A stretch of 64,000 bases of DNA from Sipunculus nudus (taxonomy: Eukaryota > Annelida > Sipuncula > Golfingiida > Sipunculidae), in the NCBI GenBank assembly GCA_026874595.1, contig CM049309.1, positions 38,455,079 through 38,519,078 on the forward strand. Reading direction: 5' to 3'. Shown piece by piece: positions 273 through 64,000 of the stretch. Within the stretch, counting starts at the first letter, position 1; every line of letters begins with the position of its first letter. The position numbers and the translations under genes are program-made. The notes under the pieces were generated by a model, which did no database searches, was not told where the DNA came from, and worked only from the letters and a program-made list of their open reading frames with translations.

Positions 273-3200
273 GTGAGTTCATGAAAGAGGTTTGTGAAAG
301 GTTCATATCAGCCTCAGGAGTTTATGAGTCTGAGACACAGCATCTGGAATGTGCATTAAAAGTCTTGGAAAAAAGCTAAGCATGTTAATTCATAAGTAAT
401 TAATATAGATCTGCATTTGCCAAAAGGTATAATATCTAATAATACATTGATGACATGAAATAAATGAGACCATTACAGTTGGAATCACATATTGGAGTTA
501 CTAAACACAATTGATTTAGTTGAATGACTTGAGTTAAATTAAATTGACAAATTACCAAGCATTCTATGCAAGTTAAAAGTAAAATTGTATAAATTGTATC
601 CGCAAAAACAAAGTTTTGTGGATACTATGGTTTTGACCAGGTTTCTCTGCCGCCGCCGCCGTATTCATTTCCGGAGAACTCCTCTGAGACTACTGGACTG
701 ATTTTTCCGAAACTTAGACCAATTATCGGGTCACATGTGAACTGGTGTCTAACCAACTGGCGTTGACCTCTGACCTTTCCTTTCTGCCCAGCATCCATTT
801 GTGCATCTGTTTCCCTTTGACTGATCAGGAAAAAAATGTTGTACAAATGTAGCCCTTGGATAGCTTTATAACATACACAAAAAATGGTGGGGCACCTGCA
901 ACCAAGTTTGCACAGTGTCCATCTGTTTGTCTGCCTTGGGTTAAAATGACTTATATCTCTGCAGTGGTTTGACTAATTCACCTGAAATTTGCATGCATAT
1001 ACATTGTGGATAGCTTTCTTGATTTTATGACGAGTGGCGCCACCTACGTTCCCATTCATGCTGCAGACATCCATGCTTATATCTCCGGACTGGTTTGACG
1101 TATCTTCATGAAAATTTGCATGTGTATAGATCTCACATAGCTCTTTATAATACAAGAAACTGGTGGCGCCACCTGCAATCCTTTTTACAGCGTCTGTCTG
1201 TTTGTCTGCCGTGGGACAAAATTACTCATATCTTGGCAGTGGTTTGACATTTCTGCCTAAAATTTTACAGGTTTATACATCCTGGACAGCTTTCTTGATT
1301 TTATGACAGGTGGCGCCACCTACATTCTAGTTTACGCTACAGACATCCAAGCTCATATCTCGGGAACTATTTCACTGATTGGGCCAAAATTTTGCATGTG
1401 TATAGATCTCACATAGCTCTTTATTATAAGCAAAACTGGTGGCGCCATCTTGAACCATTTTTGCACAGCTTCAGTCTGTTTGTCTGCTGTGGGATAAAAT
1501 CACTCATATCTCGGCAATGGTTTGACACATCTGCCTAAAATTTTGCAGGTTTATACATCCTAGACTGCTTTCTTGATTTTATGACAGGTGGCGCCACCTA
1601 CATTCTAGTTTACGCTGCAGACATCTAAGCTCATATCTCGGACACAGTTTGACTGATTGGGCTAAAATTTGGCATGTATTTAGATCTCACATAGCTCTTT
1701 ATCATACACAAAACTGGAGGGAACACCTGCAACCATTTTTGCACAGCATCTGTCTGTTTGTCTGCCGTGGGCTAAAATCACTCATATTTCAGTATTGGTT
1801 TGACTTATCTGCCTAAAATTGTGCGTGTTTATCATCTTGGATAGCTTTCTCGATATTTTTGTCAGGTGGCGCCACCTACATTTATGTTAACGCTGCAGAT
1901 ATTCAGGCCTATATCTCAGGACTGGTTGGACATATCCCCCTGAAATTTTGCATTTGTATAGATCTCACATAGCTCTTAATCATACACAAAATTGGTGGCA
2001 CCACCTGCCACAAGTCCTTCAGTTTGTCTGCTGTGGGATAAAATCACTACTATACATGTAGTGGTTTGACTTATCTGCCTAAAATTTGCATATGTATACA
2101 GCTTGGACAGCTTTCTGAATTTTGTGGTAGGTGGCACAACCTACATACACATTTTGGCTGCAGACATCCATGCTAATATGCAACACACCTCACTGTATTT
2201 CCCATTGCCACTCAATCCATGCCTCACTTCACCTGTTCCACTCTGATTTTGGCGGATACACGTAGTCGCTTGTTGACTACCCGTATTCTAGTTTATTTGA
2301 AAATTTTGGCAGTGAACAAAATCACAAAAATGTTTATTGTACAGTGATTCAGAAAACTTTTACTAAATATAAGATAAAATTTACTTTTGTCATCATTGGA
2401 CATGGCTGATAAAAAACACCTTTGTCATTTATCAGTATTAATGGACAATGTAATAAAAATACTAATGTAGGGGTGACATGAGAGGCCTCACATTTACTTA
2501 ACATGATTAAGCAGATTGATTGCCTGCTTAATTATGCATTACAACTTTAGGCTTGGAATGTATGTTTTGGAATCAGGAGTATTCAAACTGCACAGACACT
2601 TATGCAAAGCTGCAGAATAAAGACTGAAAAAGGCTACGAAGAAGCTTATTTTACCATTATAAATACATGTGCCTATGAATAAAGAAAGCTACTTCTGTAA
2701 ATAAAATGCACTCCAAACAACAGCATCCTGCTGGGAATTTGTGAAAAAAAAGCATATGAACTACTGAGGCCACATCAAATAGTGGACCATATCTGATGAT
2801 TAACAGGTAAAAGCATCAAAGACCACACTTTGATCAGCAGCATCCTGATTGACAATCCAGATTATGTCAGTGATGCATAATGTTACACTTCCTTAATGGT
2901 CCCGATACTCTCTCCGTCACTCCCTTTTCTTCTTTCAGCTGCACTGGTTAACATTTAATGTCAAATTTATGTTGTGGTTAAAGCATTAGACTCACAGCTG
3001 AAGCTCATTCAACCCCCCCCCCCCCCATTGCCTCAACAGCAGAAAGGTGAAATCTTGATGGTACCCCAGAGATTTGCTTTAATAACTGTAATTTTATGTT
3101 ATCTGGTCTATCAGACATATTCTAAATCCTATTTTATCATCATTTCACATTTGCTGCTAAAAAATTAATAATAGGACTTTTGAATAAATTGTAGCCCATT

Positions 3201-21850: not shown

Positions 21851-21914
21851 ATAGAGCAGACCGTGGGTAAACCATAATACGTCCCATCATAGACAGGCAT
21901 ATAAAAAAGGACAC

Positions 21915-22725: not shown

Positions 22726-25700
22726 CTGAAAGAAAAGAAATATTTTATATAATTACAGAGCAAAAGGTGACGTGACATTAACAATCAGCACCTGGTCCTT
22801 GGCTAAGACCAAGTTGTGGCTCTGAAGTATATACAGAGCCAGAGGCCACTGCCATCATTTATCTAGCGGACAGAGCTGCACTTATTCTAGTGAGCCCTGG
22901 AGATTTTTCAGCCAACGATTAAATCATCACTACAAACCTCCTGGCCCAGCCAGCTGTAATGTAACACATGCACCCTAAAGCTAAAGCAATAAGTGTAACT
23001 AGTGGTCCAGACACTTGGACAGACACCCAACTCATGGGATCACAAGTGCTATGCAGACAGTTGTATGCCCTCTGTTGGTTAGATAAATGAAGACAGAGGC
23101 CTGTATCTGTGTATATACTAAAGAGCCACAACTTAGTCTAGGCCTTGGCAGCAATACATAGTATTTTGTACCTTACTTATTTTAAGTTTCATAAGAGAGA
23201 TGGCTCAGATAGAGGTAATATTTGTTTTCCTTAGTTTTTGTAGTTTGATGTGAATGGTGATACCTTAATGATGAGCATAATGAGAGGTGTTCCATTAAAC
23301 TGAGTTTGTATGATCATTTCTTAGTTTGTGACATGGGATCTGAACACCTCAATGAATAGTTCAGCTCTTCCATTGTAAATACCGACATGTACCAACAGCT
23401 TCTAAAAATCACCATTTTGTGATTGCTTCAGAGAAAAGGTTACAAGCAAAGTAGTGGAATTCATGTCCCCCACTTTAACCTCTTTGTTATTTTAGCTTAC
23501 TTCTCAATATGTTTTATTTTTTTTTATTGTCCCCTGAAGATGTCTCGATATCCCATTTTTTGTGAATTCGGAACAAAAGGGAAAATTGTTTGTTTGTTTT
23601 GGAGCTAGTGATAATACATTTTCAGACAGACATTCCTACACCAATCCCAACCAAGGTATGCATGAGAACAATCACTGACCCAAATTCAATTGAAATTGGA
23701 TAACTTTTAGGAAAATTATGGCATGTACACAAAACCTGATGGACGGACAGACAGACAAACCCAAATCAATGTCCCCCATTCCCCGTAAGGGGGGGGGGGG
23801 GGGGGGACAAAAATAAGTAATAACAACTGAAATGATATTTCAAAAGTATAAGCAGTGCCAAAATTAAAAAGTCTGTTTTTATTTAAACGGACAATTAAAA
23901 CAAAAGAAACTAGAATGAGTTGATTTATGCGTCACAAAAACAGATATATGTCTCCACTCCCGATGGGTGTGACATCCCAAAATTTGAGGAAAAAGATCCT
24001 AGATTTCTGAAGATTTGACCTTGATGATGAGGTGATAAATACAGATGATGACAGACCCAACACTATATGTTTCTCCAACAGGAGAGGAGACATAATATGG
24101 CTTTATACACTTTTGACTCCATAAAAAAACTACTCTTGATCATATAAAAAGATAATATTTTTTCTTGAATAAAAAAACATGTTGGAGGATGTGATTCCTT
24201 GCCTGGAAAATGACATATATAGCATCATAAGCAACTTACCTTCAAGAAATGCCAATGCATCAACTTCATCTACCGCATTCTCTGTAAACACAATGTATTA
24301 TATTTAAACTACAAAACAGTGGAAGGAATGCCATGGTGTATTCTTAACCAAATGTGTAAATAAAAATGTTTTCCTGGTGAAAATCTAATGTTATTAAAAT
24401 GTTAACAAGGGACCCATGGTTCACTGTGCTCAGCTGAAGTTGACCTAAAAGGTAAAAATCTTAAATAATATGAAATGGAGATAAAGTCTGAGAGGTAGAG
24501 GTAATATAGGCCATGGTTGGTTTATATGATTGGTTTGTATTGATGACTAAGAAATTGGTATAAATAATATTTTGTGACCTGACCATTGGTTTCATAATGT
24601 TGAAACTGAAGCATGTGAGCAGTTTGTGAACATAAATATGTGGTCGCATTTCACAAGGTGGTAGCTTTTTTGTAACATGGGTCATTTTGACCATTTTTTT
24701 TTTAATTGTATTATTATTTGGTGGGGTTGATCTATCCTTAGGAGTTTCAAGGCTCTATTTTATTTTTTAGGAACAAGTAAAATATTAAACAAAAATTATT
24801 TAAAAAAGTATAGAAATAATGTCATGGTTAACATGACTAGGCAAAAAATAATGTAATGGTATGATCTCTTGGCAGAAAAGTCCACTCCAACATATATAAT
24901 GGAATCTACATGAATATAAGCTTGTCTCTTATTTAAACTGTAAAGATTTCATTCCTTAATTTCTTCCTGGAAATCATAGTGGTTACCACTAAGTATTTTG
25001 TATCCATTTGGGAACAAATATGGATGTAAAAATACTATTTATAAGGCTATCAGTATGTACTTTATCTGCCCATTACATTTTGTTCACCATTTTCTAGACA
25101 CATAAATATCCAAGTATTACACAATTTACAAGCACATATCATATACCGAAATAAACTTCAAGTTGGAAGCATTATGAAAAATAGCTCCATAATGTCAGTT
25201 AATTAGTTAATAGAAGAATAAACAGTGACTGTAAAAAAAGAATATAAAGTTTTTTGTGGTAAAAAGAGACTATTACATATTGTTCCCTGAAATTCAGAGT
25301 GAAAACTTCGAGTTGGTTATGGTATAAGGAAAAAAACTTGCTTGTCATTTTAAAGTACTGCTCAGGAGCATTTACTTTTAGGCCTTTACATTCCTTACAG
25401 TTAGATATTTCAGCTCTAAAATATTCAATCTTATAAATATGTCACTTTGAAAAGTTTAATGGGACAACATAACTTGCTATATAAAGTTAACCATCAACTT
25501 CCACAAGACACACACAGATTGCTCAGTTTTACATCAAAAGTAGGCTTGACACCTACAGCATGTAAAATCCTCTGAGTAATGTTTAAAAATAACAGGCAAA
25601 ATGTGCTTAGGTAAGCTTCCAAGAAAAAAATACACATCACCATGTGACACAGGACACGCCAAAATGGCATCAACCACAGGGACATTTTGTTTCATACCAC

Positions 25701-28700
25701 TGAGACTTTAGTAATTAGGAAAAAAATAATAGTACACTTGGTTGGTTAGGACATGTTTTAAGCTTTCAGATTTTAAAAAGATAATGCCTGTAGGGATTCT
25801 GAGGCCATCACAGTGGAGATTTTAATAACTTTAAGTACGGCTTGCTTGAAAAGCTACCACCTTCTGAAATGTGACCATGTATAATACTGGTATACTATTA
25901 CCATGATCATTGGTTGGCTTTTTGATAAATTTTGGACAGTTAAGCAATTAACACATTTGTTCAAGCAGATCAATTTTTTATGATATATTATTAAATACAT
26001 ATTGTTTATTTTATAAAATGAATACAGTTGTAATTAAAAGTTAATACAAAATAACTGAATATTCAAAAATTGGCAGACGGACTGGTAGACTAACAAAGCT
26101 GATCTCTTTATCTCCCATTCTGCTGAGGCAGGAATATTATATATGGAGTTTCAATTAGATCTTAATTTTTATCATATAAAATTGTTTTTTTTAATTTATA
26201 AATTGTAAACATAAGCAATATTACACATCTGAATATATAACTAAGTTGCTTTCAAATTTAAGACTTTAATAGCTTAAATTCATATACAATACAAGCATAT
26301 GAAAGTTATTTCAACAATGCTTAGAGGTTCATAAAAGTTCATAATTGATATATATATTTAATGTTAACAGAGAGATGAAAGACACACAGAGAGGGTCACT
26401 TTATGTCCCATTCTCCTGAGACAAGAATATGTTTCAATTAGATCTTATTTTTTTCTAGTACTATTTTTTTATTTTAATAAGTTTTACACATTTGCAATAA
26501 AACTAATAAAAAAATTACACAATACAGACTTAATTTTTGGTATGTATATCGGAAATATAAAAGAGAATATTTATGGTAAATATTAAGAAAAACAGATCAG
26601 TGGCCTTGATATTAGGCAGCCCTTTGGTGTGATAATAGGTTTTTAAAGGAAAAATTGAGGTTTTTCCTTAATGTCTTAAAAGAATGAAGTTTTTGGTTTT
26701 GTAGATTTTGGGGGCATTTAACAGTATGCCAAATTTTGGATTTGTCTCACATTTGAAAATGTGCCAGTCTAACAAATGGACAGACACACAGCACGACAGA
26801 CGGATGGACAATGGACCATAACTATAGCTCAGATGACTTATAGTCAGCTAAGCTAAAAACTAGAAAATTTTAAAACAATTTGACCTTAATTAATATGTGA
26901 AATAAAAGATAGCTACCTAAATCCTTCTTTTGTACTGTTTTTCTTTTGGTCTGTCCTGTGTATATGTAAGCTTCCTTTGCTAGATCATGAATAAACAGCT
27001 CCTGGAATGAGAAAATGACAAATATATAAAAATATGAGTGCAAAATACAGTAAACACATTTGCCAGGAATCTGCAGTAGACAAAGACTGACAGATGCAGT
27101 AAGATTTCTCAAAAAGTGGAAGTTTCACAAAGTAAAAAGAGACGTGGTGTTTTTAAATAAAACAAATTTGAGTAAGTCAGAGCTTCCCTAGATAAAAACT
27201 AGGTCAATTTGACCAATTTAGTTATTTCCGCCCATCTCAACAACTCAAGTCTCATTACTGAATACCTGAAAGACATTCTTTCTATCCACTTAGGAATGTC
27301 ATACTGTGATCACCTTCATATTTGCGGGGCTGATATTTTGTGATTTTCACTTTTTTTTTAGTGAGGGTTCTATTTTTACAATCTTACTATGCAGTAAGCA
27401 TCACATAACATATATCAGTTTTCATTATTGATTTAATATGTGCTCTAAATCACGACAATTTGAGGCCTATAGGCAGATAACATGAAGATCTTATATTAAT
27501 TATGTCTGTGTTTGATTGACAGGTAACATAAATACATGTATTATATATATGATTATGTATACAATCAAATTTTGGTTCTCGATTTTAAACCTAGTGGCGA
27601 GGTTACGTGGTAAACATACATAAAATGCCAATGCGGCTTTATTATATATGACCATATTAACCTGTGTAGATAGAAGTCTTATTCATGGCAGATATATTTT
27701 CGCAATAATTTCCCTTTCATAAATTATTGCCATTTGAGATCCTTGTCATATAAAGCCAACCACAGCATTACATGAGGTTAGCAATGTTTTATCTGCAGGC
27801 GCCTGCTCAAACTAGGAACGGAATGACCAAAAACAATTTTTATTTGGTGCACCTAATCCACACAAAAGGTCAAATAAGGTTTCATTTAATATTATGACAC
27901 ACAGAGTGTGGAGTTCAAACTCCCCTGAATCCTCCATCATTATACACATGAACAGGGGCCCCATGCCTCTGTTGCCATCATGTATGGCACCAGGGTCCTG
28001 GATACCGGCGCATTTAATGCAGTTAGCAAGATGTCAGATATTTTCATAATTATCATAAATACTGCATTATATGTAGAGGTTATTTAGCCATGTCATACAC
28101 CATTTGAAATTTCCATTGAAGCAGAGTATTCTGTCAAAATGGTTCAAAATTTTGATTTTTACTTTCATTAATTGCGACCATTGTTGAGGATCGAGGTGCA
28201 GATAATTTTCCCTATGTAGCGTGCATGACAGAGTCAGAGCCCCTCTCAGTCATGGTACAGGAGTGAGGACAACCCAGTACATAATGGTTATTTGGTAATT
28301 TTTGCCATTTACCTGTTGTCATTTACCAATAGCCATATTTATACCACAATTACTACTAGTATTAGACTATTAATCCAAGAAATAAACATATTCAAAACCA
28401 TGCATTTGATTTATTCTTTATTATACCATATAGCATTAATACTGTGTACCAGTTAATAAACCAATAATAATAATTAATATTCAGAAACTTAAATCATGCA
28501 TTTGATTAATTCATAATGCACATCTGTAACTTAAAAATAAAATTAATAATATTAATATTATATATAATAATAAGTCAATTAACATTTTAGGAATAACAAA
28601 GAATAACTAAAAGACCATTGTGCTCTCACTGGACTTGTAAGTTGTCATATTATTTATTACTATCATTAGCCGGAGCTGGCACCAGTCCAAGATTCTCTAA

Positions 28701-37360: not shown

Positions 37361-37415
<55 letters not shown>

Positions 37416-43000: not shown

Positions 43001-46000
43001 TAGCTTAGCTGACTTACAGTCAAGCTGAGCTATAGCGATCACTCTTTTTTGTCGTCCGTCTGTCTGTACATCTGTCCGTTAACTAGGCACAAATCATAAC
43101 GGCTGGACCTAGAATCTTGTAACTTGACATTCTGAGAGGTTGATAAAAAATCTCCTTGGAAACCAGAAATTAGGTCTCTGTTACCCATATCTTTTGAGCT
43201 ATGGGGCCCCAAAGTACCCCCCCAGAATAGTAAAAAATTTCATACAAAAACTTCAATATCTCATTAACTACATCACTGATGGTCATGATTTTTGGCATAC
43301 ATATTAATCATGAGATGTTCCATCAGTTCCTGTAGACTGGTGGCACCACCTGTATTTTTCGAATTATTACGAATTTTTTCTCTATTTTTGAGACCTTTTA
43401 AAAATGTAAACATCTGTTAACAGGGCACAAATCGTTTAGACTGGACCTAGAATCTTCATTCTTGACACACTGAGAGACCTATGAAAAGTCTCCAGGGAAA
43501 CCAGAAATAAGGTCTCTGTTACCCGTATCCTTTGAGCTGTGGGGCTCCCAATTACCCCACAGAATAATGGAAAATTTGATAAAAACTAGATGTGTCGGAA
43601 CGACACGAATGCCCCCCGCCTGGGGCAAATAAGAAACATTTGTAAAATTTTGAAACATTTTTTAAGTTCAGGATGTGTCGTATGGTCAAAAGTAGGTCAA
43701 GTAGGGCAAAATGCAAACTAGATCTGTAACTGGTCATTATCAAGCAACACACCAAAAATCAAGCAGTGTATGCAGGCATAGTGAAAAAAAGTCCATACAT
43801 GTGCATTTTCCATAAAAATTTATGTCTTTCATGAAATTTTCTATGTTTAGGAGCCGTAAAACAATCAAAAGTAGGTCAACCGGGACGAAATGCGAACTCA
43901 ATCTGTAACTGTCATTATCTGCCCACACATAAAAAATCAGGGTGGTATCTGCAGGCAATGGGGGAAAAAAGTCAGTACATATGCATTTGTTATGGCAATT
44001 CCTATTTTTCATGAAACTCTCTATGTTCAGGAGCAGTCAGATGGTCAAAAGTACGTCTACAGGGACGAAACGCGAACTCGATCTGTAAGAGGTCATTATC
44101 TGCCCACACACAAAAAATCAGGCCAATATCTGCAGGCATTGCAAAAAAAAGTCCGTTCATGTGTATTTGTTATGAAAATTTCTATTTTTCATGAAATTTT
44201 CTAAGTTTAGGAGCCGTAAAACGGTCAAAAGTAGGTCAACTGGGACGAAACTCGAACTCGATCTGTAACTGGTCCATATCTGCCCACACACCAAAAATCA
44301 GGCCAATATCTGCAAGCATTGCGAAAAAAAGTCCGTACAACTGTTTGATTTCGGAATGACAATGAAAGAAGGACGGAATGACGGAAGGACAGAAGGATGG
44401 ACATGGGTAAAACTATATGCCCCGGCCACTTTGTGGCGGGGGCATAAAAACTGCAACATCTCAATATGTACAACACTGATGGTCATGATTTTTGGCATAC
44501 ATATTGATGGTGCCACCTGTATTTTATCAAATTTTTACAAATTTTTAGCTCAGCTGACTTTTAGCTCAGCTGACTGTAAGTCATCTGAGCTTAAGCAATC
44601 ACTTTTTGTCTGTCGATCGTCCGGCCGTCCGGTCGTCTGTCCATTAAGAGGGCACAAATTGTAACCGCTGGACCTGGAATCTTCTAACTTTACATCCTGA
44701 GAGGTCCTTGAAAAATCTCCTTGGACACCTGGAATTAAGTCTCTGTTGCCCATATTCTTCGAGCTATGGGGCTCGAAAGTACCCCCAAGAAAAATGGAAA
44801 AGTTGATACAAAAGCTCAAGTATCTGAACAACTAATGCATTGATCACCATGATTCTTTGCACAGATATTGATCATGAAGTGTTTCATCAATTTCTGCAGG
44901 CTGGTGGCGCCACCTATATTTTTTCGATTTTTTACGATTTTTTTCTCTATTTTTGAGACCTTAAAAGATGTGGTCATCTGTTAACAGAGCACAAATCGTA
45001 ACAACTGGACCTAAAATCTTCTATCTTGACATGTGGGGAGGCCCATGAAAAGTCTCCTTGGAAACCAGGAATTAGGTCTCTGTTTCCCAGATTCTTCAAG
45101 CTATGGGGCTCTGAAGTACCCCCCAGAATAATGGAAATTTGATACAAAAACTCAAATATCTGAACAACTAATGCATTGATCACTATGATTCTTTGCATGG
45201 ATATTGATTATGGAGTGTTTCATCAGTTTCTGCAGACTGGTGGCGCCACCTGTCTTTTTTCGATATTTTACAATTTTCTTTCTCTATTTTTGAGACCTTT
45301 AAAGATGCAGTCATCCTTTAACAGGGCACAAATCGTAACGACCGGTCCTAGAATCTTCTATCTTGACATGCAGAGAGGCCAATGAAAAGTCTCCTTTGAA
45401 ACTGAAAATAGGTCTCTGTTACCCAAAACCTCAGAGCTATGGGGCTCTGATATATCCCCCAGAATAATGGAAAATTTGATACAAAAGCTCAAGTATCTGA
45501 ACAACTAATGCATTGATCACCATGATTCTTTGCATGGATTCTGATCATGGAGTGTTTCATCAGTTTCTGCAGACTGGTGGCGCAACCTGTATTTTTTTTA
45601 TTTTTTACAATATTTTCTCTGTTTATGATACCTCAAAAGATGTGGTCATCTGATAACAGGGCACAAATCATAATGACTGGACCTAGAATCTTCCTTCTCG
45701 ATATGCAGGGAGAACCATGAAAAGTCTTGGAGACCTAAAATAAGGTCTCTGTTACCCACAACCTCAGAGCTATGGGGCTCTGAAGTATCCACCAAAAATA
45801 ATGTAAAATTTGATACAAAAGCTAAAGTATCTCAACAACTAATGCATAAGTCATCATGATTCTTTGCATGGATATTGGTCATGGAATGTTTCATAAGTTT
45901 CTGCAGACTGGTGGCGCCACCTGTTTTTTTTTTATTTTTAAAATTTTTTTTTCTGTTTTTGAGACCTTTAAAGATGTGGTCATCCTTTAACAGTGCACAA

Positions 46001-46663
46001 ATCATAACCATTGGTTCTAGATTCTTCTTACTTGACATCCAGGGAGGTCCATGAAAAGTCTTCTTAGAAACATGAAATTAGGTCTCTGTTACCCATATTT
46101 TCCAAGCTATGGGGCTTATAAGTACCCCCAGAATAATTGAAAATTTGATACCAAAGCAGGGCACAAATCTTAACCATTGGACCTAGAATCTTCTATTTTG
46201 ACAACCTGGGAGGTCCATGAAAAAGTCTTCTTTGAAACCTGAAATTAGGTCTCTGTTACCCATATTCTCCAAGCTATGGGGCTCATAAGCACCCCCAGAA
46301 TAATTGAAAAAATTATACCAAAGCAGGGCACAAATCATAACCATTTGACCTTAATCTTCATATTTGACATCCTGAGAGTTCTCCTCAGAAACTTGAATTG
46401 AGGTCACTGTGACCTATATTATCTGAGTTACAGGCCATGTTTGAGTACCCCAGAAATAATGCAAAATACAAACAACTTGCTAGATTCCTCAGGAGCAGCT
46501 GGATGGATTGTCATCAAAATTGATATGCGTATGGGTGTTGATGAACTTCAGCTAATATGTATGAACTATGATGCCACCTACATTATCTTAATTTGTTGCT
46601 ATGCAAGGACATATTGTCAACATGCCAGTCGGCTGAGCATGATGACCCATGGGTCACTTGTTA
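43001..46663 (+). mobile_element. Family A element (type-1 core), interrupted by a nested C element
   Basis: The left end at 43001 is TAGCTTAGCTGACTTACAGT then CAAGCTGAGCTA, followed by GTCCGTCTGTCTG simple repeat. The core is tandem units of about 336 bp with a GGTGGCGCCACC-type palindrome at 44903, 45239, 45576 and 45910. A second family A left end lies at 44545, with a 17-bp local repeat at 44545/44562. The right end has GGCTGAGC and the palindrome GACCCATGGGTC (46644-46655), then ACTTGTTA. Short open frames in it are repeat shadows. Confidence 0.75.
43588..44445 (+). mobile_element. Family C element (pearl/HINE-like), nested, with 7-bp flanking repeat
   Basis: It begins AGATG, then the hairpin TGTGTCGGAACGACAC, then ATGCCCCCCGCC. 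The core is about four tandem units of about 180 bp; TCAAAAGTAGG-type marks are at 43686, 43865, 44045 and 44225. GACGGAAGGACAGAAGG simple repeat follows at about 44374-44402. It ends in ATGCCCC, the hairpin GGCCACTTTGTGGC, then GGGGGCAT. AAAAACT flanks it on both sides (43581-43587, 44446-44452). It is non-coding. Confidence 0.8.
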
Positions 46664-49333
46664 ATTTGTATTATCATTGACTAAATACGAGGTTACAATT
46701 GTTGCGAACCATAATGTTTGACAAATTCAATGAAACTTGTAAAATTTTATCTTTATCAATAACTAAAGACCCTGTGTACATTTTCTTCATATCATCCACT
46801 ACAAGGCAGTTGATTCAAGATCAAATTCTAATGCAAACAGTGCTGAATGCAGATCTTATGTCTTTTCATATTTCTGAAATATGTTTTAACACAGCATAAT
46901 AAATATGATAAATAATAAGGATCAGAATGATCAGCAATTATAAACACTGTCCAGTGCCCAATTGCTGTGTTGAATGAATTAGCTGGTCAGGCTGGACACT
47001 TGGGGGCACAAGTTGTTTGCCTGCAGTTTTTAGCTCAGCTGAATATAAGTCATCTGAGCTATAGTCGTGGTCCTTTGTCCGTCGGCTGTCCGTCCGTCCA
47101 TTAAACTGGCATGTTTTGAAATAGTTGGACCTACGAATCTGAAATTCCGCATACCTTTAGATGTCCCCAAAATATCCTACCATACCGAAAATTGGGTCAC
47201 TAGGACTTTGTTCCTTCGAATTATTAAAGAAAAACCTCCGTTTTCCATTTAAAACCCATTGTTACACTTCAAGACTGCCTAATATCAAGACCACTGACCT
47301 GATATTGACCATTTTTAGCTCAGCTGACTATAAGTCATCTGAGCTATAGTCGTGGTCCATTGTCCGTCGTCAGTCCGTCTGTCTGTCCGTCTGTCTGTCC
47401 GTCCGTCCGTTTGTCCGGATGGCCGTCTGTAAGACTGGCATGTTTTGACACCGTTGGACCTACCAATCTGAAATTCGGCATACAGTTAGATGTCCCCAAA
47501 ATCTCCTACCATGCTGAAAATTGGGTCAATAGGACTTCGTTCCTACGAGATATTAAGGAAAAACCTCAATTTTTTATTAGAAATCTATTTTCACACTTCA
47601 GGACGCCCTAATATCAAAACCACTCATCTGGTTTTCTTCATATTTACCATAAATATTCCTCTATATAGTTCCTATGTACATGCCAGATATTAAGTCAGTA
47701 TTATATAATTTAAAAAAGTTATGGGCCCAAACATAATGGACTTTGTAAAAAAATCAGGAAGATATTTGGTCACTTAAGACCAAAAGTGTTAAAGGTAGGG
47801 ACTTTTTTCCAGTAATACAACTTTAATTAATCAAAATTTAATTGTATACCAAAAATTAGATCAAAATCTGTTAAATTTTTTTAAATATTGGCAAAAATAT
47901 AAAAAATTGTACCTTAAATTTTGCCAAACTTTTGCCACGGCACATTTTTTTCCTGTAAGTACTGTGGATTTAATTTTCACAGCATGTATACATAAGGATT
48001 TAATCTGTTTAAATCTGAAATTTGAAAATAAAAGCTGCAAAATTAGGCTAGTTATTGAATTTTTGGGGAGGCTCTTGTTGTATTCCCTTACATTGTTAAG
48101 CAGTCCACTTTGATGACTGCAGGTCATTCAGTGCACATCCTTATGCTCCCCAGGCTGTTGGCATAATTTTAGATGTCCCCAAAATCTCCTACCATACCGA
48201 AAATTGGGTCATTAGGACTTAGTTCCTTCGAGATATTAAGGAAAAAAAACTCCGTTTTCCATAAAAAAAGCCATTGTTACACTTCAAGGCTGCCTAATAT
48301 CAAAACCACTGATCTGTTTTTGATCGTATTTAGTATTTACATTCTTTCATACATTTTCTATGAACATACCAAAAATTAGGTCAGTATTGGGTATTATTTT
48401 GAAGTTATGGGCCAAAAAATAATGCAATTTTTAAAAAAATCAGGAAATATATTTACTCACCTTACATGAGAATTGCTGAACCTAGAGACTTTTTTTCAGG
48501 AATATAACTTTATTTAATCAAGATTCAATTGTTTACCCAAAATTAGATCTGAATTTTGCATATTTTTCAAGTTATTAGCATAAATAAAAAATCAATACCT
48601 TAAATTTTGTCCAACTTTGGCACTGTTGATTTAATTTTCACAGTATAAATACATAAGGATTTAATCTTTTAAAATCTGAAATTTCAAAGAAATTGATTGG
48701 AAAGAATAGCTTTTATTCATGTTTTCATACACCATGTCAAGTGTTGTTTACATCTAGCCCACCTAGTAGTACAGCCTTCACTTGCATTATGTAACCCACC
48801 CCAGGCAGCTTGCCTTGGGTCAGCCTGGCCACTACCAGCAGGCTTCCCTTCTGCCCTGCACTACCCCCCCCCCAGATGGTGCATAAACTAGATGAATGTT
48901 ATTATTTTCTGTATTTGATTCATTCTTATTCTAGGCTATGCTACATTTTAGATTTTGTATTGTACCACCAGGGTTACAATGATTAAAGTGTACATTTAAT
49001 TGTGTCCACATAGTGGTGTATTGTTATGAAAGTGTGGATGTTCATCAGATAAGTAATTCCTTACTTCAGAAGAGTAAAAACTTCACCAGGTGTGAAATTG
49101 ACTATTAATTCCAGAAATAAATTAAAACTGGTATAGTAATTAGCACAATGATATTGTTTGTCCCTCATTCAACCAACAGTGTGTATACTTTATTTGAAAA
49201 GATGTTTTATTTTATCAAATTTACTTTTATTTTATTTTGGTGAATAAAATTAAGCATGTACTGAAAACTCCAATGTGCAAAACTTGTTAATAGTGATTCA
49301 AGGAATATTCTTGTAGATGCCATGTTGTCGCAT

Positions 49334-51660
49334 TATTGTATCCCCACACAAAGTCGCTGGATACTATGTTTTCATACCGGTCCCGCCGCCGCCGCTGCCG
49401 CATATGAATCTTGTTGGCGCGATAACCCAAAAAATATTTCACAGAACTTTACCAAACTTGGTTTATATATGTATAGATATGGGTAAGAGGACGACGCCTA
49501 TTTAAAATGAGGTCATGACCTTTACTAGGAGAGTGTCCTTGACCTTGAATAGGTCCAATTTAGGGGAAAATCACACAAATTCTTTAATATCTCAAGAAAT
49601 CTTGCATGGATTTATCCCAAAATCAAGTTGATGGAAGATCATGGATAGGGTTGTCATGTTCCAGAAACTGGTGGCGCCACCTATTATTCTTTACTTGTTT
49701 TCGTGCCGTTTAATACCCCCAAAATTGCCACCTTACAGTACTATGAGCATTATAAGTCAAAAACTAATGGACAGATTTCTTTTATTTTATGCATATACAT
49801 AGGTATGGGTTATGGGATGATGTTTATTTAAATTGGGGTCATGATCTTTCCTATGAGAGCGGCCTTGACGTTGAATATTGCCATGTATGGTGAAAATCAC
49901 ACACCTCTTATGATATCTCCAGTGTTGATAGCCATATGGATTTCAAACATGACTTATGTATGGCCCACCAATAAAGTAAGAACCCTATAGGTTCTAGGGT
50001 CATTAGGTCAAAGGTCAAGGTCACTGGACTGGCATCTTAAAAGATACTGTGGATGCATTTTAAGCCAAACTTTCATCCCAGGTCTTCCATCTTCAATATA
50101 TAGCTCACTTGCCAATAGTGGATGATCCATATAAATTTTGGGGTCACAAGGTCAAAGGTCAAGGCCACTGGAGCTATCTGTCCAATAATTAATTAGTTTC
50201 TGGATGATAATTCCTGCTTTTATTGATGTATTGATTTCAAACTTGACTTATATATGTCCAATTGAAAAACCAAGACTCCAATTGATTTTGGGGTCGTGAG
50301 GTCAAAGGTCAAGGTCACAGGACACATCTTTAAAAAGATTGTGGATGCATTTTCAGCCAAACATTTCATCTCAGACCTTTCATCTTGCGCATATAGTTCA
50401 TCTGCCAATAGAAGAGACCTCTATCAATTTTGAGGTCACAAGGTCAAAGGTGAAGGTCACAGGAGCCATCTGTCCAGAAATTAGTTTCTTGATGATAATT
50501 CCTTCTTTTATTGATGTATGGATTTCAAACTTGACTTGTATTTGACCCATAGAAAACCAAGACTCCAATTGATTTTGGGGTCATGAGGTCAAAGGTCAAG
50601 ATCACAGGACATATCTTTAAAAAGATTGTGGATGCATTTTCAGCCAAACATTTCATCTCAGACCTTTCATCTTGCACATATAATTCATCTGCCAAGAGCG
50701 GAAGACCTCTATCAATTTTGAGGTCCAGGGTCAAAGGTGAAGGTCACAGGAGCCATCTGTCCAAAAAATTAGTTTCTGGATGATAATTCCTGTTTTTATT
50801 GATGTATGGATTTCAAACTTGACTTGTATATGTCCCATTGGAAAAGCAAGACCCAAATTGATTTTGGGGTCATGAGGTCAAAGGTCAAGGTCACAGGAAA
50901 TCTCTCTAAAAAGATTGTGGATGCATTTTCAGCCAAACATTTCATCTCAGACCTTTCATCTTGCACATATAATTCATCTGCCAAGAGTGGAAGACCCCTA
51001 TCAATTTTGAGGTCCAGGGTCAAAGGTGAAGGTCACAGGAGCCATCTGTCCAAAAATTAGTTTCTGGATGATAATTCCTCCTTTTATTGATGTATGGATT
51101 TCAAACTTGACTTGTATATGTCCCATTGGTAAAAGCAAGACCCAAATTGATTTTGGGGTCATGAGGGCAAAGGTCAAGGTCACAGGACACATCTTTAAAA
51201 AGATGTGGATGTATTTTCAGCAAAACATTTCATCTCTGATCTTTCATCTTGCACATATAGTTAACCTGCCAAGAGAGGAAGAACCCTATCAATTTTGAGG
51301 TCACAAGGTCAAAGGTTAAGGTCACAGGAGCCATCTGTCCAAAAATTACTTTCTGGATGATAATTCCTGCTTTATTGATGTATAGATTTCAAACTTGACT
51401 TGTATATGTCCCATTGGAAAAGCAAGACCCGAATTGATTTTTGGGTCAAAGGTCAAGGTCACAGGACACATCTTTAAAAAGATCAAGGTCACAGGACCAA
51501 CATCTTCAACAAGATTGTGGATTAATAGATGAAAGAAACAATAAATATGCCAAGTGTCAGTATATGCTGCTAAAAATGGGGGCCTATTCTTAAAGGGGGG
51601 GGGGGGCCTACTATGTCTGGGGATACTCTGGCACCTGCGGTGCCAAGAAATGTCTAGTTT
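49334..51660 (+). mobile_element. Family B element (B2) with 145-bp core, nested inside family A
   Basis: The left end has TTGTATCCCC, a CACAAAGTCGC loop and GGATAC, then CCGCCGCCGCCGCTGCCG. The first core part is B-like, with GGTGGCGCCACC near 49670. From about 49990 to 51490 about eleven units of about 145 bp follow, with AAGGTCAAAGGTCAAGGTCA and ACATCTTTAAAAAGATTGTG marks. The right end has GGGGATAC (51619-51626), hairpin GGCACCTGCGGTGCC (51630-51644) and AAGAAATGTCTAGTTTT. There is no coding capacity; several open frames across the units are shadows. Confidence 0.75.
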
Positions 51661-51749
51661 TCTTTTAAATTCAGTTTAAACATTTATAATTTAAAAATAA
51701 TAAAATATATGTGTATGCATAATATGGCCCAATATGAGCTACACTCTGG

Positions 51750-51890
51750 ATATATGATGATTGCAACTTTTTCAACAATTCTAATATTTTAACTTATAGT
51801 TTCAGTTTTTTACTCTGTATATATAATGATTGCAACTTTTGCAACAATTCTAATATTTTAACTTATATTTTCAGTTTTTTTTTATTCAAA
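51750..51890 (+). repeat. Tandem duplication, about 70-bp unit
   Basis: TGATTGCAACTTTTTCAAC plus the following bases to TTTCAGTTTTTT occur twice in a row (about 51757-51811 and 51826-51881), with only a few differences. Confidence 0.85.
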
Positions 51891-54800
51891 ATTTAAAAAA
51901 CCTGTAAATAAAAAAATGATTCAGATAAAAACTTCTTAATGGAAAAAGTGGATATGCTTAAAAAAAATAGGATTATATATAAACTTAAATGCATTATTTC
52001 CTTGAAAGTGAAATAAAGGTATTAGTCCATTCTGTCTACTTGCCTGTCCATCTGTAAATTTTCATATGCATCACAGTATCTCAAAATTTTACTGTTTTTC
52101 TTCATGACAGTCTTGTCAGAGTATTAGTTTGCAATCATATATTTAGAACTTTACTATAATGAAGTAGGAGGGCCCCTTTCCTCTTAGCTTTTCATATTCT
52201 TATATAAATGAAAAACATTACAATAGAATATTTCTACATCCACCTTCGTGCTGCCCTCACTTTTCCTTTCTCCGAACCCCATCCCAAAGTCAGCCTCAGT
52301 AAGCAAGAACAAGATGAATCAGATATATTCATACTTTAATATTTTGTATAACTATACGTCCATAGGTACCTATGTACATGCCAGAAATTATGTCAATATT
52401 GTGTAATATGTAGACATAGTGGGCATCACAATAATGTACCTTGTCAAGACTAAAGAGATATTGTGTCATACAGACACAAATTCATAAATCACTTCATCAG
52501 CAAAGTTAATCATAACATCATATCTGTCAAATTGAAAGCTTGCAGACTACCACACACTTTAGATCCTTCAACAAATAGCCTTATCATCATTCTACTACTG
52601 CTTATTACTGCTGTCATTGCATTCATATTTGCTCAAATATATCACAATTTTCAACCCCTCCTAAATAAATAAAAAATAAACCAATATATTTGACTCTATT
52701 AATCCATCAGTCAGGTAATTTCATTTATCATTTACTCACATATTACATTACATTCCTTTATAATAGCCCAACATGTCCATGATATTCTTAAGCTTTATCG
52801 ACTCGATATAGTATCACAGTGGAGAAACATTTACAGTACAATCACGATTAGCTGAGCGCCGTGACCCATGGGTCCCTTGTTAATATATTAAATCCTCTAT
52901 ACATTTCCTATGTACATACCAGAAATTAGTTCAATAATTTTTAAATTCTTGAAGTAATGGGCCCAAACATAATGCGCTTTGTAAAAATTCAGGAAATATG
53001 TTTACTCCCTTAACTTAAGAATTGCTGAAGCTAGAGACTTTCTTTCAGGTATATAACTATATTTAATCAAGATTCAAATATATACCCAAAATTAGATCTG
53101 AATTTTTAAAATTTATAAAATTAATACCTTAAATTTTACCCAGATTTGACCATGGCACATTTTTTCCTGTAACTGCTGTGGAGTTATTTTTCACAGCATG
53201 TTACCATAAGCATTTCATCTCTAAACATCCGAAATTTGAAACCAGTTGATCAAAAACTGTAGATTTAATTCAAGTTTTCAAGCACCATTTAAAGTATTGT
53301 TTAGATCAAGCAAGTGTTATGCAGTTTGCTAGGGCTCAGCTCCCGAGCTCCATTCCTTTGAGATATTAAGAAAAAAAACTTTAATTTTCAATTAAAAACC
53401 CATTGTTACACATCAAGACTGCCTAATATCAAAACCACTGATCTAACTTTGATCATATAAAATATACATGTTCTTCTGTTTATACTCTATGCAAATGCCA
53501 GCATTGATGTGAGTATTGCTAAATTATTTTAAGTTATGGGCCCGAAACATAATGCACTTTGTAAAAAAGAAATATATACTCCCATAACATGAAAATTGCT
53601 GAAGCTAGAGATTTCTTTTTTTTTGTCAGGGATATAACATTATTTAATCAAGATTCAATTGTATACCCAAAATTAGTTCTGAATTTTCCAAATTTATAAG
53701 TTATTAGTATAAATTTAAAATCAGTACCTTAAATTTTGCCTAATTTAGATCATGGCATGTTTGTTTGCTTTAAGCACTGTTTATATAATTTTCATATAAT
53801 GCTGAAATAAGGATTTCAACTTGTTAGTTTTGAAAGTTGAAAGAAACTGGTCAAAAACTGTAGCTTTTATTAAAGTTTTTTTATGAGACCATGTCAGACC
53901 CAGGCTCAACCCAACCCCCCTCCAGTCACCTGTATGTCCTCTACTTGACCTTTCAGGCCAATTATGCACACTTGACGTGAGGCATATACTTGCAACTGGG
54001 CAGCTTATTGCTGGCCACAGCTGATCGAGGTGTCCAACCCAGCTCATCTATTAATTGTTTTGACCGACAGCATAACAATAAACAATGAAAAAATAAATTT
54101 TTATAGGTCTATAATAACAACTTTAAAAGTAATCAATAGAAAAGTAATTTGACAGTTGATGATTAACAGGGAATCAACTTGCAGTTACTGAGGTTTTATG
54201 GATTTTGTATGGATTGTTGAAAATGTATTCCAAATAACACCATTGAGTCACCTATGGTATTTTTCTTTTCAGTTTTAATAATAAAAAAAAAATATTTAAA
54301 TTATATTGTTCTTTACTATTAGGAATTATATGAAGGAAATTAATGATTGACAAAGATGCAGTTGATAATATAAATCTAAATTTCGTGGTCTTTTCCAGGT
54401 GTTTCAGCTTGTTAATTTATATTTATTTCAAAACTTAAAAATAGTTAAAATGTCAGAATTTTTAAATTTTACTCAGACAGGTACTGATTAAAGATGTCAA
54501 TATGTTTCACTTATGACATTCAGACCCATAACTGTAACAGCTGTCACAAGACTGTAAATTATCAAAAATTTATATTACTGGTTCATATATTTCAGTTAAT
54601 AAAATTAAACTTGCCCATCTCTAGTTTTCTCTTGTATAATTTATTGGGTGTTCTTATCCTAGGGACATTTTTTAAACATATAATGGTTTCATAGCTGAGA
54701 TACTTCAAATTTTTTTCTGATACATTTTTTTTTAAATAAAAAAATTGAATATGATAAAAAATCAGATCTTAGAAAAGTTCTCATTATGATTTCTGTAATG

Positions 54801-56670: not shown

Positions 56671-59070
56671 TAGCTCAGCTGACTAAGTAATGTGAGCTAT
56701 AGTTGTGGGCCATTGTCCGTCGTCTGTCTGTCTGTCTGTCCCTCCTTTAGACTGGCACGTTTTGAAACAGTTAGACCTATGAATCCAAAATTCGGCGTAC
56801 TGTTAGATGTCCCCAAAATCTCCTACCATACTGAAAATTGGGTCAATATGACTTCGTCCCTTTGAGATATTTAGGAAAAACCTCAAATTTCCATTAAAAA
56901 TCTTATTATTACACTTCAGGACTGCCTAATATCAAGACTATTCATCTGTTTTTCTTAATATTTACCAGAAGTAATCTCCTATTTATTTCCTATATAAATG
57001 CCAGAAATTAAGTCGGTTAAGTGTAATTTCTCTAAGTTATGGGCCGGAATATAATGGACTTTATAAAAATCAGGAAAAATATTTACTCACTTAACATGAA
57101 ATATTTTGAAACTAGAGACTTTTCCCCAAGTATATAACTTTGTCAATTTAAGATTCAATTGTTTTATCCAAAATTCGATCTGATTTTTGTAAATTTTTTA
57201 AGTTATAAGCATAAAAATCAAATCAGTACCTTTAATTTTGCCCAACTTTGACCATGGCACATTTTTTGCCTGTAAGTTCTATGGATTTAATTTTCACAGT
57301 AAGTAAATGTAAGTATTTAATTTGTTTCAATCTGAAATTTGAAAAAAGTTTGAAAATTAGGCTAGTTATTGATTTTTTTCTTGAGGCTCTATTGTAGTCA
57401 TTTGCTTTGATTACAGATGCAGGGTCCCACTCCAGGTCACTGGAAGTCAGCTATGCCAGGGTTTCTGATTTGTTACAGTCACTGGGGGAGAGATCCCTTG
57501 CCGTGACAGGTGTACAGTTATTCTCATATCATCACCTAAACCCCCCCCCCCCTCCAACAAAGCCAACCAACCAAGTGTTATGCAGTAATTGTTATTGTTT
57601 TCATTGTATCTCCTTAATTGTAATGCTGTTTCCACTCCAATAACCAAAAACTTTCCTTGAAAAAGAAATTCAAGGATTAAAAGATGCCATGTTGTGTGAT
57701 GAAGCAAATTATGGATAAATAAAGGCACACTTTAAAATTGTGAAATCTGAGTCAGGTATTATTTTTAGATATTTATTGTTTTGCAAATTTAAAAGATATA
57801 TTTTTGTGGTAAAAAATAAATAAACATGTGTATGCATGATATGGTGTTATCAGACAAGATTGAGATTTATGATGATGCAATTTAGAATTATGAATCCACT
57901 TTGATATTCAGATATATATGTTACATTTGAAATGTATAGAAATATAAACTTATAATAAAAAATTGATGTGATTAAAAAATGAGGATCTAATACAAACATT
58001 TGTTCATTATTTTCCTGCCTAAGCAGAATTAGAAATCAGGCTTTGTTTGCCCTGTATGTATATGCAGAAGTAATGTTAATCCCATCATCTCCCCCCCCCC
58101 CCCCCCCCCCTGTTCTGCTGCCATTGATTCCTGTGCACTGGGACATTAGTTTTATTGCAAATGTGTAAAATTTATTAACTTAAAAAATAATTGGATAAAA
58201 AAATTTCAGATCTGAAACATATTCTTGCCTTAGGAGAAAGGAACATAAGCTAATCAGCTCTGTCCATCATCTCTCCGTTATCATTAAATATATATTAATT
58301 ATGAAATTTTCGTATAAGCACTGTTGAAATAACTTTCATATGCTGTATGTGTTTTGAATTATGCTATTTAAGTCTGAAATTTGAAAGCAAATTATATATT
58401 CAGTTGTGTATTATTGCAGATGTTAAACTTTGATATAATAAATAAATTAAGAAATTATTGAAACTTTATATATTATCAGCTTTGTTTGTCTAGCAGTCTG
58501 TCTGTCCTTTTTAAATATTAAGTAATTATGAATGAACTTTTTTATCTTGTAAGCATTGTTGAATTAAGTGAAAATCCTATATATATACACTATGATAATA
58601 CAGATATGTTTTAACTCCCTCCATTCCACATCCCCCCCCCCCCCCAACACCACCATCAAGTCCTTTCATATATGGACTGGGGTCATTAGTTTCAACTGTA
58701 TACATTTCATAACATAAAAAATACATATATTTAATAATATATATTTTAAAAAAAGATTCAATTGAACAAATGTGTAAACTACTGAAATGATAACAGTTAA
58801 TCAAAAAGCCAACTAATGATCATGGTAATAGTACAGATTGTTTGTTCCCAAACTGCTCACATGCTTCAGTTTCAACATTCAGAAACACATGGTCAGGTCA
58901 CAAAATATTATTTGCAACAATTTCTTGCTCATCCATACAAACCAATCATAAAAATCAACCATGGCCTATATTACCTTTTCCAATACACTTTATCTCCAAT
59001 TGATATTACTTTGATTTTTACGTACAAGGTCAACTTCAGCTGAGTACAGTGACCCATTGGTCCCTTGTTA
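56671..59070 (+). mobile_element. Family A element (type-2 core)
   Basis: The left end hairpin TAGCTCAGCTGAC...ATGTGAGCTATAG is followed by GTCCGTCGTCTGTCTGTC. Core unit marks TCTCCTACCATACTG and GGACTGCCTAATATCA are present once. Later sequence is eroded, with poly-C tracts near 57540, 58091 and 58632. The right end CAGCTGAGTACAGTGACCCA then TTGGTCCCTTGTTA is at 59036-59070. Confidence 0.7.

Positions 59071-61523: not shown

Positions 61524-61526
<3 letters not shown>

Positions 61527-61581
<55 letters not shown>
61527..61581. repeat. TA microsatellite
   Basis: About 27 perfect TA dinucleotides. Confidence 0.95.
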
Positions 61582-61583
<2 letters not shown>

Positions 61584-62378: not shown

Positions 62379-64000
62379 TAGCTCAGCTGACTGTAAGTCA
62401 TCTGAGCTATAGCCATCACTCTTTGTCCGTCGTCCATCCGTCCGTCTGTCCGTCCGTCTGTCCGTCTGTCCGTTAACCTGGCACAAATCGTGACCGTTGG
62501 ACCTAGAATCTTGTAACTTGACATTCTGAGAGGTCCATGAAAAATCTCCTTGGAAACCAGAAATCAGGTCTCTGTTACCCATATCCTTCAAGCTATGGGG
62601 CCCCAAAGTACCCCCCAGAATAGTAAAAAATTTCATACAAAATCTTCAATATCTCATTAACTACAACACTGATGGTCATGATTTTTGGCATACATATTGA
62701 TCATGAGATGTTTCATTAGTTCCTGCAGACTGGTGGCGCCACCTGTATTTTTTTATTTTTTACGAATTTTTTTCTCTATTTTTGATACCTTTAAAAATGT
62801 GGACATCTGTTAACAGGGCACAAATCGTAAAGACTTGACCTAGAATCTTCATTCCTGACATTCTGACAGATCTATGAAAAGTCTCCATGGAAACTAGAAA
62901 TTAGGTCTCTATTACCCATATCCTTCAAGCTATGGGGCCCGAAAGTACTCCCCAGAATAGTGAAAAATTTCATACAAAAACTTCAATATCTCATTAACTA
63001 CATCACTGATGGTCATGATTTTTGGCATACATATTAATCATGCGATATTTCATCAGTTTCTGCAGACTGGTGGCGCAACCTATATTTTTCGATTTTTACG
63101 AATTTTTTTCTCTATTTTTGAGACCTTGAAAAATGTGGACATCTGTTAACATGGCACAAATCGTTAAGACTGGATCTAGAAGCTTTATTCTTGATATTCT
63201 GAGAGACCTATGAAAAGTCTCCATGGAAACCAAAAATTAGGTCTCTGTTACCCATATCCTTCGAGCTATGAGGCCCCAAAGTACTCCCCAGAATAGTGAA
63301 AAATTTCATACAAAAACTTCAATATCTCATTAACTACATCACTGATGGTCATGATTTTTGGCATACATATTAATCATGAGATTTTTCATCAGTTTCTGCA
63401 GACTGCAGACGCCATCTGTATTTTTTCGATTTTTTACGATTTTTTTCTCTATTTTTGAGACCTTAAAAGATGCAGTCATCTGTTAACAGGGCACAAATCA
63501 TAACAACTGGACCTAGAATCTTCATTTTTGACATCGGGGGAGGCCCATGAAAAGTCTCCTTGGAAACCTGGAATTAGGACTCTGTTACCCAGATTCTTCA
63601 AGCTATGGGGCTCTGAAGTACCCCTGCTGAATAATGAAAATTTGATACAAAAACTGAAATATCTGAACAACTAATGCATTGATTACCATGGTTCTTTGCA
63701 TGGATATTGATCATAGAGTGTTTCATAGGTTTCTGCAGACTGGTGGCGCCACCTGTATTTTTCGATTCTTTACAAATTTTTTTCTTTATTTTTGAGACCT
63801 TTAAAGATATGAACATCTGTTAACAGGGCACAAATCATAACAACTGGACCTAGAATCTTCATTCTTGACACACTGGGAGACCGATGAAAAGTCTCCATGG
63901 AAACCTGAAATTAGGTCTCTGTTACCCATATCCTTCATGCTGTAGGGCCCCAAAGTACCCCCCAGAATAGTCAAAAATTTCATACAAAGAGATCATGAGA
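62379..64000 (+). mobile_element. Family A element (type-1 core), runs past window end
   Basis: The left end hairpin TAGCTCAGCTGACTGTAAG then TCATCTGAGCTA is followed by TCCGTCCGTCTGTCCG simple repeat. The core is about 336-bp units, with the palindrome or its decayed form at 62732, 63069, 63405 and 63742. Units are closely alike, so the copy looks younger than most. The right end lies outside the window. Confidence 0.8.

Follow-up and report, generated by a model that had tools for sequence, protein, structure and literature searches.

Why should several repeat families of unrelated sequence, lying together in one 64,000-nucleotide stretch of the Sipunculus nudus genome (G000:C4:38455079-38519078, called the window throughout), be built to one plan? 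In three of them, which we call A, B and C, a 5′ subterminal inverted repeat (subTIR) with a second copy that completes a hairpin is followed by a microsatellite, a tandem core, a 3′ subTIR and a 3′ palindrome. Very probably A, B and C are Helentron-associated (HINE) elements, A2 (a subtype of A) and C being related by internal deletion to two separate lineages of autonomous Helentrons that this genome also harbours. The common plan would then be the inherited end anatomy of the Helentron superfamily, copied from separate parents.

Family A, which we subdivided into A1, A2, A3 and a further variant, begins with AGCTCAGCTGAC, a short loop and GTCATCTGAGCT, preceded by T runs. There follow a GTCC-type run, long tandem units, TCAGCTGAGC, the palindrome GACCCATGGGTC and CTTGTT, with variation among copies. 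Left ends of A1 continue as TCGTGGTCC or something close to it, and GCGCCGTGACCC...CCCTTGTT is found in the A1 right end at 52848; A2 has 337-bp units and its right end in CATGATGACCC...CACTTGTT. At up to one mismatch the window contains 18 matches to the A sequence AGCTCAGCTGA (0.67 expected) and six to the A palindrome GACCCATGGGTC (0.04 expected), and A left ends number about 30,600 genome-wide. The window elements of types A2 and C on which the argument turns are the following.

44563..46662, plus strand: A2 element, with left hairpin 44563-44596, GTCC-like run, 337-bp array 44640-46378 and right end 46629-46662
43585..44445, minus strand: C element nested in an A2 array, with left hairpin 44445-44417, GTCC-like run and 180-bp array 44339-43684
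43620-43585, minus strand: C right end, with subTIR, TGTGTCG/CGACACA palindrome and CTAGT

Autonomous Helentrons with A and C ends

The window itself has no coding capacity, as expected of HINEs: a scan of it for open reading frames (ORFs) found none of 150 aa or more. Autonomous partners were sought in the whole genome (1.43 Gb, 153 contigs), where a search for the Helitron_like_N family gave 143 matches, a lower bound, several of them in open frames of more than 2,000 codons, and a 309-aa query for C-terminal coding ends gave 129. From these, 62 post-coding stretches (298 to 1,250 bp each, 64,930 bp in total) were assembled from seven loci with both flanks and from 17, 20 and 18 further 3′ stretches, the loci being chosen non-randomly by length, score and spread. 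One stretch (L020) has neither a coding match nor a tree row and was scanned from its first base, and for two (L076, L077) the end of the coding sequence is an estimate.

An A or C right end (up to 4 mismatches) stood in sense orientation in 28 of the 62 stretches and in antisense orientation in none. The window carries eight A or C right ends per 64 kb on both strands, a density that predicts about four per strand in 64,930 bp. Among the 20 stretches retrieved after the prediction had been made, ten had an A right end in sense at up to 2 mismatches, and six of the further 18 had one at up to 3. When 5 mismatches were allowed a single antisense match appeared (L053), overlapping the sense palindrome. 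One locus (L028) has its own A3 right end at about 1636 plus a second end. The 28 right ends represent perhaps six lineages, all in sense, because copies within a lineage are near-identical. Autonomous Rep/helicase Helentrons with the same ends thus exist for A2 and C at both ends; for A1, A3 and one further A variant only the right end was matched behind Helentron coding ends, and no such partner was found for B.

Alignment of the copies places the element boundaries at the hairpin ends. Four A2-type copies (III_C17, L017, L018, L033) match one another at 98% as far as position 1223-1226, where the CTTGTT end lies, and are unrelated beyond it; the match between two C-type copies is 98.8% over 567 bp and halts at CTAGTTT. 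On the left, the A2-type copies L037 and L038 are alike from 1512 and 1755, their A hairpins beginning at 1517 and 1760, and the C-type copies L035 and L036 are alike from 4996 and 4438, their C hairpins beginning at 5002 and 4444; homology starts a few bases before the hairpins because a T run precedes them. T5 or T6 lies to the left of all five autonomous left boundaries and the 5′ flanks otherwise differ, an observation made on these copies. The autonomous elements so delimited measure 16,128, 15,937 and 14,885 bp (A2) and 12,004 and 12,385 bp (C). The order and orientation of the two ends are also fixed. Among the matches listed, 38 exact C right ends lie in the first 31.9 Mb of contig C1. 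For 20 of these 38 an exact left end is found upstream, on the same strand and no more than 3 kb away; for one it is downstream on that strand, and for none is it on the opposite strand. With random placement the mean was 0.125 and the maximum 2. Boundaries away from the hairpins, or ends without a fixed orientation, would have told against the common plan, and their absence from these alignments and pairings favours the finding.

The window elements resemble these autonomous copies beyond their ends. The left end and array of the A2 element at 44563..46662 recur in L037/L038, with 79.8% identity to L037 over 1,771 bp that span the hairpin and the 337-bp array; the ends and array of the C element recur in L035/L025 and L036/L032, with 86.3% identity to L036 over 798 bp through the 180-bp array. 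As judged from these alignments, A2 and C retain the parent's left hairpin, microsatellite and left array together with about 35 terminal bases of its right end.

The proteins of the partners are those of Helentrons. The longest A2-type ORF has 2,342 aa, with VEFQQRGSPHIH after FYR, and the Helentron RGS signature (Rep motif 2) is present in all six ORFs inspected, as FYRVEFQQRGSPHIH in lineage III. Pfam domains Helitron_like_N, PIF1 and Exo_endo_phos were found in III and in group I, the last, the AP-type endonuclease at the C-terminus, scoring 21.3 bits in III (below the cut-off of 24.5), 50.4 in group I and 37.8 in the C lineage, which was assigned on its Rep domain matches and this endonuclease. 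A Herpes_teg_N-like domain (8.6e-14) lies at the N-terminus of the A2-type protein (III; the L009/L010 ORF). In an unrooted tree of C-terminal sequences (21 rows, about 340 aa; V_C7 and the long branch L031 left out, L039-L078 having too little coding sequence), A1 (two rows), A2 (four) and A3 (three) form separate clades inside one A group with support of 100/99. The two C rows group with I/II across the midpoint, the branches measuring 0.98 and 1.01 changes per column. Rows without an assigned end are IV, which lies in the A group, and all nine of group I/II. A and C ends therefore ride on widely separated Rep/helicase/endonuclease clades, which makes them one superfamily and not clients of one shared machine.

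The anatomy and the autonomous copies of A2 and C support the Helentron-associated identity that the first-pass annotation had proposed. By analogy with what is known of the family, each lineage's own Rep/PIF1-helicase/endonuclease would recognise its ends, one strand would be peeled off and copied by rolling-circle replication, and copying would halt at the 3′ palindrome, the copy being joined between T residues.

That annotation had also suggested one superfamily with a shared rolling-circle machinery, and here only the superfamily stands. The alternative that one enzyme moves A, B and C, reading the shape of the hairpin, its ACAAAGT loop and the terminal CTAGT while tolerating differences in the stem, draws on the loop and terminus common to B and C, on an A subfamily that also ends CTAGTT, and on the fact that B is so far without a partner of its own. 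We nevertheless regard it as improbable, given that A ends and C ends are carried on different Helentron clades, which long and supported branches keep apart, that A1, A2 and A3 form separate subclades, and that the A1 and A2 hairpins inspected carry no loop motif; a single enzyme for all families was rejected on this clade split. For B, for which no partner was found, a shared machinery may still hold. Of the two features that had been taken to unite B and C, the loop motif ACTTTGTG is present in the C and B2 hairpins, while B1 has only the shorter ACAAAGT, and the CTAGT terminus does end B1, B2 and C but is not confined to them: one A subfamily elsewhere in the genome ends CTAGT(T), the other A subfamilies ending CTTGTT. 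Taken by itself, the 8-mer ACTTTGTG was rejected as a significant signal (six found against 3.96 expected; 26 of 100 shuffles as high).

Independent convergence, whether of foldback elements and others like miniature inverted-repeat transposable elements moved by cut-and-paste transposases, or of satellites that captured ends, would account for the different stems of A, B and C and for their different central monomer lengths. It is very unlikely, in that Helentron domains are what the partners of A2 and C encode, the Pfam matches of the pieces scanned including no domain of another transposase. The insertion of C into an A2 monomer, compared in one filled and unfilled pair, left no duplication beyond an A5/T5 run, which is also what a 5-bp duplication indistinguishable from the element's own T run would look like. 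For B, anatomy alone opposes convergence. The anatomy in question, found in A, B1, B2 and C, consists of a 5′ subTIR with its inverted repeat (IR) in a hairpin, a complementary 3′ subTIR with a palindrome after it, close to the 3′ end, and a microsatellite and central tandem repeats in the order seen in oyster elements and DINE-1.

That abundant A elements merely happen to adjoin Helentron genes is scarcely credible, frequent as the ends are in the genome and real as nesting is in the window (C in A2): 28 sense ends against no antisense end, lineage-specific distances after the coding end, copy homology that stops at these ends and left boundaries that coincide with hairpins as well all oppose it, and for A2 and C the two-sided boundaries refute it.

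Several observations weigh against descent from autonomous Helentron parents, or limit how far it reaches. No A or C end was found in 34 of the 62 stretches, nine of which belong by the tree to group I/II and one to IV, and the copies counted are not independent: those of III are 98% identical, and L024 and V_C7 resemble one segmental duplication. Upstream of the right end, no A1-type left end turned up over about 31 kb in the C7 copy or over 16 kb in the C3 copy. No autonomous B partner was found, and no B right end lay behind the coding ends searched, one of the patterns being narrow and the ends of group I/II lying out of reach. Among the alignments listed, none joins the A2 element of the window to the 3′ region of an autonomous copy beyond the array and the last ~35 bp, and with nothing alignable between array and right end the term deletion derivative is our inference. 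Array sharing between parent and derivative could also have run the opposite way.

Other features of the Helentron loci deserve mention. A1-type homology extends more than 15 kb upstream without a left hairpin (L013, L016, L059 and L079 against L034 and L060), which would fit either an element of great length or a duplication common to these copies. One A2-type Helentron contains a nested B-type element that has ends of its own (L009, about 263-1140, reverse strand), and a 279-bp array in L038 and aligned repeats in L037 occupy the place that matches it; since arrays stand at the matching place, the B element probably travelled with the A2-type Helentron. Around the first seven loci (group I/II and IV included) a few pairs of a hairpin and its inverted copy were seen and none was convincing, their right ends being either beyond the fetched DNA or of an unrecognised kind. 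In a second Helentron group (L001-L008, L022, L026, L027, L029, L030), whose complete members have frames of about 2,230-2,430 codons, arrays of repeats follow the coding end, and the fetched DNA shows no end that can be recognised as A, B or C. Three Rep matches of near-equal score (G000:C7:48525832, 48556035 and 48587672) lie about 30-32 kb from one another, a spacing that might reflect tandem copies of a segment bearing a Helentron.

Families A, B, C and D in the window

The common order of parts, claimed earlier for A, B and C and probably for D, holds for A, for both variants of B and for C, and was not confirmed for D. The remaining A-type features are as follows.

33343..35305, plus strand: A1 element, with left hairpin 33343-33378, GTCC run 33387-33428, repeats about 683 bp apart and right end 35272-35305
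24404..26854, minus strand: A1 element, with left hairpin 26854-26816 and right end 24437-24404
43002..43580, plus strand: A2 left end and array start, broken by C, with no right end of its own seen
47317..52881, plus strand: A1 left end 47317 (another at 47032) and right end 52848-52881, with B2 in between, read as nested
56672..59069, plus strand: A-type left end 56672-56698 and diverged A-type right end 59036-59069, their pairing uncertain
62380..64000, plus strand: A2 left end 62380-62414, microsatellite and 337-bp array, continuing past the window edge

The tetranucleotide run reported for A is present, but read from left to right in the element it is GTCC/GTCT and not CCGT. At 24403-24632 and 58843-59070 the window has oppositely oriented A-type right ends whose adjoining 139 bp are alike at 89%, perhaps another subfamily.

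Family B is represented by two copies, at 596-2292 and 49338-51658, whose palindromes differ as had been described, and D by a left-end-like hairpin.

596..625, plus strand: B1 left hairpin, GTATCCGC...GTGGATAC (5′ subTIR and its IR, one G.T wobble), with ACAAAGT loop
647..661, plus strand: B1 microsatellite (CCG)n
860..2179, plus strand: B1 tandem core called by TRF, 278-bp units containing GGTGGCGCCACC
2251..2292, plus strand: B1 right end, with 3′ subTIR GCGGATAC, palindrome GTAGTC/GACTAC and terminus CTAGT
49338..51658, plus strand: B2 element, with left hairpin 49338-49364, CCG run 49382-49395 and 288-bp array 49935-51483
51619-51658, plus strand: B2 right end, GGGGATAC, with TGGCACC/GGTGCCA and CTAGT
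23770..23810, minus strand: D left-end-like hairpin TTGTCC.../GGGGGACA with a GTCTGTCC run, not accepted as an element
1033-2142, 42320-45922, 49669-49682, 62731-63754, 19726-20001 and 41375-41388: places of GGTGGCGCCACC

Two instances of nesting, overlooked in the first-pass annotation, are visible here: C lies inside an A2 array, and B2 between the left and right ends of an A1 element. A genome-wide pattern for the B left end gave two matches, one perfect and one with the wobble, and was too strict to be informative. No right end was found for D when exact GGGGACA was sought at 20,000-27,000 and about 1.4 kb was followed downstream of 23810 on the minus strand, and neither an inverted copy with a palindrome nor a tandem array was seen, a diverged end farther off being possible. 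D was accordingly left out of the HINE families.

A mechanical scan of the window for the plan (hairpin, inverted stem copy, palindrome) gave eight overlapping matches on both strands, of which three are registers of B1, three are registers of the A element at 44563 and two are apparently spurious; ten Markov-shuffled single strands gave 0, 0, 0, 0, 0, 2, 1, 0, 0 and 0. This strict scan missed C, B2 and the remaining A copies, so it backs the family count without proving it.

A 12-bp palindrome, GGTGGCGCCACC, had also been overlooked; it recurs in the A2 core, in the B1 core and inside B2, although these are otherwise unrelated. At up to one mismatch GGTGGCRCCACCT has 34 matches in the window at 22 places (0.05 expected), about half of the places matching on both strands. 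Outside the listed elements, 31557-31829 is a 21-bp minisatellite of 13 copies, TGTTTTATTGTCCTGAAAGAA.

The left hairpin and the 3′ palindrome

In A, C and B2, and weakly in B1, the 5′ arm pairs imperfectly with its near copy. The local IR of A reads GTCATCTGAGCT where GTCAGCTGAGCT would pair with the 5′ arm, that of C has GTGGCCGGGGCAT in place of the pairing GTGGCGGGGGCAT, the B2 hairpin pairs six bases only and the B1 hairpin contains a G.T wobble. Exact genome-wide counts follow the same asymmetry: the A local copy has the mismatched T in 17,057 cases and the pairing G in 52, the A1 right repeat has the G of the perfect complement in 2,792 and T in 13, and the C local copy is mismatched in 2,524 and perfect in 16. 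In one autonomous A2 copy (L015) the mismatch position is A instead of T and pairing is still lost. Calculated over the same span, the duplex with the 3′ repeat is more stable than the local one in A (-13.0 against -8.6 kcal/mol), C (-17.0 against -11.6, the right repeat being taken from the L014 copy), B1 (-10.3 against -7.6) and B2 (-8.6 against -5.7). Autonomous C copies have a 10-nt pairing of -15.2 (3′) against -9.8 kcal/mol (local), and in the window C copy, which has an extra G, the 3′ repeat still pairs better (-14.1 against -11.6 kcal/mol). With full arms the 3′ advantage is kept in A, C and B2, and in B1 the two are about equal (local -10.6, distant -10.3).

One account is that the mismatch has no function and was a founder accident copied to all descendants, an account we consider equally likely to be right or wrong. 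Each family descends from few masters, and its thousands of copies are not independent tests. It fits less well with one asymmetry being built from different bases in A, in C, in B2 and, in the form of a wobble, in B1, and with the A that leaves L015 still unpaired.

The mismatch and the perfect 3′ repeat together suggest a possible switch of pairing partner. Extending the mechanism given above, the 5′ arm might pair first with its local imperfect copy and then swap to the perfect 3′ repeat, uniting the ends. Such a switch would be built into the single strand: the local hairpin, held imperfect in evolution by a single mismatch, would yield the 5′ arm to the 3′ repeat once the displaced strand was complete, the paired ends would mark a full copy for joining, and each end family, with a stem of its own, would have its own insulated switch. 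We offer this tentatively and think it rather unlikely as a whole. Its weight lies on the three or four families with different bases, because descent from few masters explains any single family equally well. Against it, the mismatch ratio may itself be an inheritance from few masters, the B1 wobble could be explained by CpG decay, and the duplex energies take no account of how much closer the local partner lies than the 3′ one. To our knowledge, no search having been aimed at it, how Helentron ends find each other has not been established; an imperfect hairpin facing a perfect distant partner is a concrete hypothesis, accessible to mutation.

The 3′ palindrome of A shows modest support for conserved pairing. 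Among the 14 distinct strings found in 26 A right ends, one pair is AU in seven, GC in six and unpaired or other in one, and three of five covariation measures exceed shuffles. Unfavourable to it, two measures do not rise above shuffling: the number of pairs changed on both sides is equalled or surpassed in 357 of 500 shuffles, and that of pair types in 500 of 500. The covariation is moreover that of a single pair, perhaps one or two events.

Comparison with known Helentron-associated elements

The body plan itself is already known from DINE-1/HINE and oyster elements (PMC4067079, PMC7492417), so that our result is ordinary in kind and useful in detail. In DINE-1 the 5′ side of the IR is likewise nested in the 5′ subTIR, and a microsatellite, central repeats and a 3′ palindrome follow (PMC4067079). 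HINE-Mo and DINE-1 are also alike in being deletion derivatives of Helentrons with Rep, helicase and endonuclease and the RGS signature (PMC4067079). They differ in their hosts (PMC4067079); here several end families sit on several Rep clades within one genome, and the tandem array is common to parent and derivative. Pearl elements of bivalves, short arrays between conserved ends that have been reclassified as non-autonomous Helentrons, are similar by description, with units of about 160 bp unlike those here (PMC7492417).

There is also a close likeness to the Cg_HINE elements of the Pacific oyster, in which a 5′ subTIR, complementary IR, microsatellite, tandem core, 3′ subTIR and palindrome follow one another, and in which unrelated families have one plan: 11 elements have the same part order, one group having all modules unrelated in sequence (PMC7492417). 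Their microsatellites are mostly of 4-nt units, several GTCY/GTCC, as here, and they insert at T-rich sites without target duplication (PMC7492417). Their monomers are mostly 140-180 bp, against 180, 278, 288 and 337 bp here, and a conserved hairpin mismatch, present here, is not mentioned in the available text (PMC7492417). The 13 repeat clusters borne by HINEs make up 49% of the 100-500 bp arrays detected in that genome (PMC7492417).

In the oyster, ten autonomous Repbase elements could not be related to any Cg_HINE (PMC7492417), and no autonomous element was detected in that assembly (PMC7992393). Titles and abstract openings of the top literature matches, in which subscription journals are thinly covered, announced no autonomous HINE partner in a mollusc. 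The addition made here is the autonomous partner, a point that the oyster work did not settle (PMC7492417). Pairs of parent and derivative that share both ends and an array make the assignment of enzyme to family testable. The tandem cores already sit in the parent, which bears on whether central repeats are captured or self-formed, a question raised for the oyster elements (PMC7492417). Compared by description with the Cg_HINE elements, to which none of the ten autonomous elements could be related (PMC7492417), two families here have partners at both ends.

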